A DNA stretch of 64,000 nucleotides from Arthrinium phaeospermum (lineage: Eukaryota > Ascomycota > Sordariomycetes > Amphisphaeriales > Apiosporaceae), in NCBI GenBank assembly GCA_006503535.1, contig QYRS01000005.1, forward strand, positions 496,001 to 560,000, read 5' to 3'. The translations under genes were made by a program, and so were the position numbers. Position 1 is the stretch's first letter. Each line of letters begins with the position of its first letter. This document shows positions 30,548-32,814 of the stretch, one piece after another. The notes under the pieces were generated by a model, which was not told the origin of the DNA, ran no database searches, and saw nothing but the letters and a program-made list of their open reading frames with translations.

Positions 30548-32814
30548 ATGTCTGACAAACTCACCCGGTAGGTTTACCTCTGGACGTTCACTTTTGCTTC
30601 CCTCTCCCAGGCGGCGCATTCCAGATCGATCTTCACGGCCATAGACACTGTGCTAACCCTTCGTGACAGTATCGCCATTGTCAACTCTGACAAGGTAAAA
30701 ATCTCACCCCACCAAATCTTGAATTACCCCGCCATCGGGATGTGATGATGCTAATGCGACACGCACAAATTACAGTGCAAGCCCAAGGTATGAAAGGAAC
30801 ACCTTTGCTAGGCGCAGAGAAAATACTGACTGATCTGCTTAGAAATGCCGTCAAGAATGCAAGAAATCTTGCCCGGTTGTCCGCAGTGGCAAGCTGTGTA
30901 TCGAAGTCGCCCCGGATTCAAAGCTTGCATTCATCTCTGAGAGTCTCTGTGGTACGTATGCATTCGAGCCATTTCATTCCAAAGCCCCCTTGAGAAAACA
31001 AATGCTGACCATCGTGTAGTAAGTTGTTATAGTTCGCCAGATTCATTGCGAAACCTGTGTGCGCCGCGATTGCGATCGATGCCGAGTGCTAACATGTATT
31101 AGATCGGATGTGGTATCTGCCCTAAGAAGTGCCCATTCAGCGCCATCACGATTATCAACCTGCCGACCAACCTCGAGTCTCAAGTTACCCATCGATACTC
31201 GGCCAACAGCTTCAAGCTCCACCGTCTGCCGATGCCCCGACCTGGAAACGTTTTGGGTCTGGTTGGAACCAACGGTATTGGAAAGAGTACGGCATTGAAG
31301 ATTCTCAGCGGCAAGCTCAAGCCCAACCTGGGCCGCCACGAAAACCCCCCTGATTGGAACGACGTGATCAAATACTTCCGTGGCTCCGAGCTCCAGAACT
31401 ACTTCACCAAGATCCTCGAGGATGACCTGAAGGCCGTCGTCAAGCCTCAGTATGTCGATCAGATCCCTAAGGCTATCCGTGGCCCGGAGAGGTCGGTTAA
31501 GGGCCTTCTGGAAGGCCGCGCCTCGCTGAGCAACCTGGACGAGGTTTTGGATACTCTCGAACTCCGCCATCTCATGGACCGTGAGGTTAACCAGCTCTCT
31601 GGTGGTGAGCTTCAGCGATTCGCCATCGGAACCGTCTGTGTCCAGAAGGCCGATGTGTACATGTTTGACGAGCCCTCCTCGTACCTGGATGTCAAGCAGC
31701 GTCTGGCTGCTGCGCGTATCATTCGCTCATTGTCGCAGTCCGACAACTACATCATCGTTGTTGAACACGATTTGTCTGTTCTCGACTACCTCTCCGACTA
31801 CGTCTGCGTACTCTACGGTAGACCCGCCATCTATGGTGTTGTAACGCTTCCGCACTCGGTCCGTGAAGGCATCAACATCTTCCTTGACGGCCATATCCCG
31901 ACCGAAAACCTGCGATTCCGTGATGAATCTCTGACTTTCCGTCTTTCGGAGGGTGCCGATGACTTCATGGTTGACAAGGTCCGCGCTTTCAGCTACCCCA
32001 AGATGGAGAAGACCCTCGGAGGCTTCCACTTGAACATCGAAACCGGTGATTTCACCGATTCCGAAATCATCGTCATGATGGGAGAGAACGGAACGGGCAA
32101 GACCACTTTCTGTAAGCTTCTGGCCGGTGCCTTGAAGCCCGACGGCACCCAGAAGGTCCCAGAAATGAAGATCAGCATGAAGCCCCAGACTATTACCCCC
32201 AAGTTCGACGGAACTGTCCGCCAGTTGTTCTTCAAGAAGATCCGCCCTGCCTTCCTGTCGCCCCAGTTCCAGACTGATGTCGTCAAGCCCCTCAAGCTCG
32301 AGGACTTCATTGACCAGGAAGTCAAGAACTTGTCCGGTGGTGAATTGCAGCGTGTTGCTATCGTGCTTGCCCTTGGTATTCCTGCTGATATCTACGTCAT
32401 CGACGAGCCGTCTGCCTACCTGGACTCTGAGCAACGTATCATTGCTGCCCGTGTCATCAAGCGTTTCATCATGCACGCCAAGAAGACGGCTTTCATCGTC
32501 GAGCACGATTTCATCATGGCTACTTACCTGGCCGACAGAGTCATTGTCTTCGATGGCCAGCCCGGTGTCGACGCCCGTGCCAACACACCTGAATCGCTCC
32601 TGACCGGCTGCAACTCCTTCCTGAAGAACCTCGATGTTACTTTCCGCCGCGACCCGACCAACTTCCGCCCCCGTATCAACAAGATGAACAGTCAGTTGGA
32701 CCAGGAACAGAAGCTGAACGGAAACTACGTAAGCATATGCCCAAGCCATTTATATATCGCATGTCACTAACCAAAACCCAGTTCTTCTTGGAGGAGAACG
32801 AAGCAACGTCCTGA
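30548..32814 (+). CDS. rli1: ABC ATPase Rli1/ABCE1, ribosome recycling factor
   Basis: Essential cytosolic Fe-S ABC protein that splits ribosomes after termination and assists initiation. Coding exons are 30548-30567, 30670-30694, 30776-30787, 30843-30950, 31103-32728 and 32782-32814, giving 607 aa, the family length. The N-terminal domain has both 4Fe-4S Cys sets ([15 protein letters not shown] and [13 protein letters not shown]). The twin ABC domains show Walker [10 protein letters not shown] and GENGTGKTT, signatures [11 protein letters not shown] and [11 protein letters not shown], Walker [10 protein letters not shown] and IDEPSAYLD, and switch His in VEHD twice. It ends [10 protein letters not shown] after a short last exon. 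The four small exons encode the Fe-S domain. Between exons 4 and 5, canonical single-intron splicing breaks the frame; a twin intron restores it. An indel in the assembly is the alternative. Confidence 0.95.
30951..31102 (+). other. Spliceosomal twin intron (stwintron, D1,2 type) in rli1
   Basis: Exon 4 must end CTC TGT (30950) and exon 5 begin ATC GGA (31103) to give the invariant SLC-IGCGIC. The base after TGT is G (30951), immediately followed by a canonical intron GTACGT...TGCTGACC...GTGTAG (30952-31019, 68 nt). Removing it joins G30951 to TAAGTT (31020 on), creating a GTAAGT donor for a second intron with branch GTGCTAAC (31086-31093) and acceptor TTAG (31102), 84 nt. Two-step removal gives phase 0 and the conserved protein. 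Using GTACGT with the distal acceptor leaves one extra base and hits a stop within a few codons. Confidence 0.85.

Follow-up and report, generated by a model that had tools for sequence, protein, structure and literature searches.

PMC9024468 (section 3.3) counts more than 1500 [D1,2] stwintrons for the Hypoxylaceae, and the candidate described here from the rli1 gene therefore adds to a known type. By the account given in PMC9024468, two-step excision greatly predominates in this class, the distal sites are seldom used directly, and some members have an [A2,3] alternative; excision of the inner intron first is explained in the treatments of PMC7138796 and PMC12403724 by intron definition, with the nearest sites pairing. 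The rli1 element resembles the uniquely occurring Hypoxylaceae [D1,2] class, as presented in PMC9024468, in its geometry, its fit to the search formula, the failure of a genome search to find a similar copy and a position that is apparently common to related species. It differs from that set in its host (Apiosporaceae, Amphisphaeriales, versus Hypoxylaceae, Xylariales) and in being known from sequence alone. With the propagating sister [D1,2] stwintrons of PMC12403724 it shares the [D1,2] geometry and a Sordariomycetes host, but unlike with those described there no similar copy was found in the genome, and its fold (z score 0.10) is no better than that of shuffled sequences. The [D1,2] stwintron in lipS of Aspergillus and other Leotiomyceta, which PMC5639578 reports across three classes, likewise lies in a well-conserved gene and was likewise missed by automatic annotation; gene, position and age differ. 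In the article texts that we searched, no publication mentions a stwintron together with any of RLI1, ABCE1 and RNase L inhibitor; Table S1 of PMC9024468 may list an rli1 case.

The window, meaning the whole 64-kb stretch of DNA that was analyzed, covers positions 496001 to 560000 of its contig, and the genome searched comprises 48.4 Mb in 19 contigs. The six exons of rli1 (Table 1) encode a 607-aa Rli1, residues 1 to 602 of which align to yeast Rli1 chains. A Pfam search of this native form returned Fer4_RLI (PF04068), Fer4 (PF00037; marginal, at 22.8 bits against a cut-off of 21.1) and two ABC_tran stretches, so that with both Fe-S domains, two ABC ATPase stretches and a near full-length match to Rli1 the product is identified as Rli1/ABCE1. 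Rli1 is essential in yeast. Searched against the genome, the exon 5 protein matched only the rli1 of the window at E ≤ 1e-20. A 5.8S rRNA search gave three matches, of which one passed the cut-off, as a partial match. In a domain search of the genome, the sole Fer4_RLI match lay on another contig (C12:1000354-1000455); the domain is also found in Tsr3 proteins. That search gave no Fer4_RLI match at the window's own rli1, presumably because introns cut the domain.

Table 1. Features of rli1 and its proposed stwintron (window coordinates), and inserts in Apiospora Rli1 models
Feature	Position	Strand	Basis or remark
rli1 exon 1, start codon 30548	30548-30567	+	Alignment with yeast Rli1 starts at residue 1
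rli1 exon 2, 25 nt	30670-30694	+	Gene model
rli1 exon 3, 12-nt microexon (CKPK)	30776-30787	+	Residues also in yeast Rli1
rli1 exon 4, last codon Cys55 (Fe-S motif)	30843-30950	+	Gene model; yeast Rli1 alignment
Proposed complete [D1,2] stwintron	30951-31102	+	Match to published model A formula; 152 nt, phase 0
G1 of split outer donor	30951	+	Sequence; first residue of 7/7 Apiospora inserts is one with G-start codons
Internal intron, 68 nt, GTACGT...GTGTAG	30952-31019	+	Splice modeling; read-through resembles A. hydei insert
Internal-intron branch-point element TGCTGAC	31003-31009	+	Motif; 10 nt from branch to intron end
Weak donor GTGTAG	31014-31019	+	Form as in A. hydei model P0122
Preformed GTAAGT donor, wrong-order decoy	31019-31024	+	G common to inner acceptor; outcome computed
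Rest of external intron, TAAGTT...TTAG	31020-31102	+	84 nt when G30951 is counted
External-intron branch-point element GTGCTAAC	31086-31093	+	Motif; 9 nt from branch to intron end
rli1 exon 5, starts IGCGIC	31103-32728	+	Gene model; protein search
rli1 exon 6 and stop	32782-32814	+	Gene model
Apiospora sp. TS-2023a Rli1			Insert of 9 aa at C55/I56
A. arundinis Rli1 (P0003)			Insert of 8 aa at C55/I56
A. phragmitis Rli1			Insert of 9 aa at C55/I56
A. kogelbergensis Rli1			Insert of 7 aa at C55/I56
A. rasikravindrae Rli1			Insert of 12 aa at C55/I56
A. hydei Rli1 (P0122)			Insert of 21 aa at C55/I56
A. saccharicola Rli1 (P0123)			Insert of 3 aa at C55/I56

Between the codons for Cys55 (TGT, 30948-30950) and Ile56 (ATC, 31103-31105), rli1/ABCE1 is split in phase 0 by 152 nt (30951-31102) that start GGTACGT and end TATTAG. 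We consider it very probable that this segment is a genuine [D1,2] stwintron, in which a 68-nt U2 intron separates G1 from T2 in the donor of an 84-nt U2 intron. At the 5′ end a G is followed by a complete internal donor (G/GTACGT), the internal acceptor (HAG) abuts the U2RWGY of the external donor (TAG/TAAGT), and each intron has its own branch point and acceptor with a spacing within 4 to 20 nt. With the inner intron out, the outer donor reads GTAAGTT and the outer acceptor TTAG. The [D1,2] search formula given in section 2.1 of PMC9024468 produced one match in 264 kb of genome on both strands, exactly at 30951-31102, and one match in total in ten Markov simulations; a looser [D1,2] pattern had a single match in the 64-kb window, where 20 simulations averaged 0.1. 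With random interiors set between these ends, the combination of inner acceptor, branch point and donor-completing TRWGY appeared in 1023 out of 200000 simulations (0.5%), and it was found in 276 of 127754 real interiors from the window (0.2%).

Alternative intron models were enumerated from 30930 to 31140 with GT-AG introns only, of 40 to 200 nt, single or as two non-nested introns. None of the 57 open, in-frame non-nested models restored the native protein, and among the models enumerated the native reading frame was restored by consecutive excision only. Of three open single-intron models, only the one joining the 31014 donor to 31102 kept both LC and IGCGIC, and it adds 21 residues. Four nested models restored the native protein, with outer donors GTAAGT, GTTGTT, GTTCGC and GTGCTA (the last with an outer intron of 17 nt); the consensus donor, GTAAGT, arose only with the inner intron 30952-31019.

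To place the junction among relatives, 169 distinct Rli1 proteins were compared, drawn from the best 120 of 7992 and the best 120 of 2114 matches (proteins only). No insert was present in 162 of the 169 proteins among the matches listed, 161 of which read LC/IGCGIC and one (P0113) LC/IGCSIC. All seven named Apiospora proteins among these matches carry an insert of 3 to 21 aa exactly between C55 and I56 (Table 1), and the nearest named proteins listed belong to this group (Apiospora sp. TS-2023a, 600/607 aligned residues identical; A. arundinis, 588/607), which probably places the window's own species in Apiospora or very close to that genus. The first insert residue is G, E, A or V in all seven, i.e., residues with codons starting with G, as expected if simple introns cannot remove the segment and its first G stays exonic; the probability of seven such first residues is 0.311^7 = 2.8e-4 if they were independent, which those of related species are not. 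The A. hydei insert GTYALKPFHSRASMRRPMLTI is identical at 14 of 21 positions to the read-through of the window's inner intron, both start GTYA, and the likeness extends to the MLT codons, which hold the branch point in the window. The other six inserts are unlike the window intron, that of the closest relative (P0001) included, whose insert starts GTK where the window read-through has GTY; a GG start in those species is therefore only presumed. It is plausible that each of these six inserts represents the last part of the inner intron of its species, up to the shared G. A search for Rli1 relatives in viral contigs, where stray fungal DNA was sought, gave one pattern match and no relative.

A sequencing or assembly error could in principle account for the GG start with a single indel: without the extra G, 30952-31102 alone would be a canonical intron with a GTACGT start, a branch point and a TTAG end. 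However, this would make the inner acceptor, its branch point and the donor-completing TAAGT coincidental (0.2 to 0.5% in the simulations and interiors above), and it does not account for the odd junction in all seven named Apiospora models among the matches listed, or for an A. hydei insert that opens with GTYA as the window read-through does. We regard such an error as highly improbable.

It would take a similarly slim chance for the annotated form to be real, with the GTGTAG donor at 31014 spliced to 31102 and 21 extra residues retained in the Fe-S motif. In the window this form keeps an open frame, and it is the same as that of the A. hydei model P0122, but it parts Cys55 from Cys58 in a motif that is unbroken in yeast Rli1 chains and free of inserts in the 162 proteins counted above. 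Between A. hydei and the window, 7 of the 21 insert residues differ against 32 of 576 aligned elsewhere (Fisher P = 1.7e-4), a count that even takes in a badly annotated stretch of P0122; the insert is thus much more divergent than the remaining protein, as would be expected of non-coding DNA and not of coding sequence. The inserts of the six other Apiospora models differ as well. The Fer4 Pfam match (E ≤ 0.001) is missing in P0122, P0001 and P0007 and is present, marginally, in the native form and in P0002. The last of these, an insert-free JGI protein, equals A. arundinis P0003 minus its insert at 606 of 607 residues (the difference being at residue 565), and its 2338-nt contig suggests a transcript origin, although a genomic contig could also be of such a size. 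On the other side, the A. arundinis AAU 773 genome is described in PMC10999098 as annotated with RNA-seq through FunGAP; should P0003 derive from it, the insert would have survived an RNA-informed annotation, which counts against a stwintron. One-step excision of a noncanonical GG-AG intron would yield the native protein, but it is at least as improbable as these two, since it leaves a complete inner intron and outer donor without explanation and we know of no recognized fungal U2 class with GG donors.

The [D1,2] stwintron is thus the reading we retain. The preliminary description of this DNA had placed it at the same coordinates, with the GG start and the same splice and branch motifs, all of which were borne out on the sequence, and its interpretation as a [D1,2] stwintron is well supported by the anatomy, the failure of the non-nested models enumerated and the relatives. 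The indel that it had named as its refutation, leaving a single GT-AG intron, is made unlikely by the seven anomalous Apiospora models and by the like inner intron of A. hydei.

Several of the protein models compared are irregular elsewhere in the sequence. The CKPK microexon (30776-30787) is missing from three of the seven Apiospora models (P0004, P0005 and P0007), in which the preceding stretch is garbled, and Anthostomella pinea P0166 looks out of frame for about 40 residues from the microexon position on. Around the equivalent of window 31250-31350, the A. hydei (P0122) and A. saccharicola (P0123) models have lost the Walker A motif (GTNGIGKST) from their first ATPase domain and seem to read the next stretch in another frame, probably through a false annotated intron. 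The 1067-aa ABCE1 of Diaphorina citri (P0121) looks chimeric, with additional sequence at the N terminus and, beyond the Fe-S motif, a stretch that is repeated.

Stwintrons as a class are known to be spliced in two steps, and we infer from the sequence that the same would hold for rli1 in the cell. The spliceosome would take out 30952-31019 first, joining G30951 to TAAGTT and so creating the outer donor; the outer intron would be removed second, joining TGT to ATC and restoring CIGCGIC. This inner-then-outer order is predicted to be obligatory, because a ready outer donor overlaps the inner acceptor and the wrong order ends in a stop. By computation, if the 31019 donor is used first, GTGTA/ATC remains, the inner acceptor is destroyed and the frame runs into a stop after residue 77. 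Joining the distal sites directly (30952 to 31102) would leave a single G, and the frame would end after residue 62. With the outer intron retained the stop falls after residue 82, and with all 152 nt retained it falls after residue 77. Only use of the weak 31014 donor keeps the frame open, with 21 extra residues inside the Fe-S motif, so that four of the five non-productive outcomes computed end in an early stop. The downstream exon begins with ATC, and because exon 5 starts with A and not G, the [A2,3] alternative is unavailable.

Among the matches listed, the anomaly at the junction was restricted to Apiospora. The stwintron is apparently common to species of this genus, judging from their protein models, and we infer an origin that predates the divergence of the Apiospora species listed. 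The models of Neoarthrinium moseri (P0008) and Seiridium cardinale (P0009) are exact at the junction, which would be impossible for a GT-AG-only pipeline over a [D1,2] stwintron; gain within Apiosporaceae is therefore the simplest reading, although this is no proof. A DNA search of the genome, which passes over simple repeats and very common words, matched the stwintron only to itself at E ≤ 10, and no sister copy was found. Origin by intron duplication was considered and rejected: the look-alike stretch of the inner and outer introns, which is also a 14-nt direct repeat (79%), scored no higher than controls did (P = 0.18 and 0.17), and intron 1 was a better match to the outer intron than the inner intron was. 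A terminal inverted-repeat structure was likewise rejected: the ends pair in the predicted fold, but its z score is 0.10, and an equally good fold was obtained for 103 of 200 shuffles. With no sign of duplication, copies or unusual folding, the rli1 stwintron resembles the uniquely occurring, position-conserved class and not the sister class.

The preliminary description had also proposed that two-step removal might be a control point for rli1 expression. The results lend this no support: most of the non-productive outcomes lead to an early stop, but nothing in the data links their use to changing conditions. That the balance of productive and stop-generating splicing sets the level of Rli1 (for example, with iron or Fe-S supply), as an order switch kept across Apiospora, is very unlikely. 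Since four of the five non-productive outcomes computed truncate the protein, the locus offers a clean model of how the spliceosome chooses between overlapping sites. The rli1 stwintron, a proposed [D1,2] case in a highly conserved gene, appears to have led annotation astray in related genomes: the seven named Apiospora Rli1 entries among the matches listed seem to contain artefactual residues within the Fe-S motif, presumably because a stwintron is beyond what simple GT-AG intron models can represent. Inserts at one conserved junction across related proteomes could be a cheap screen for stwintrons.
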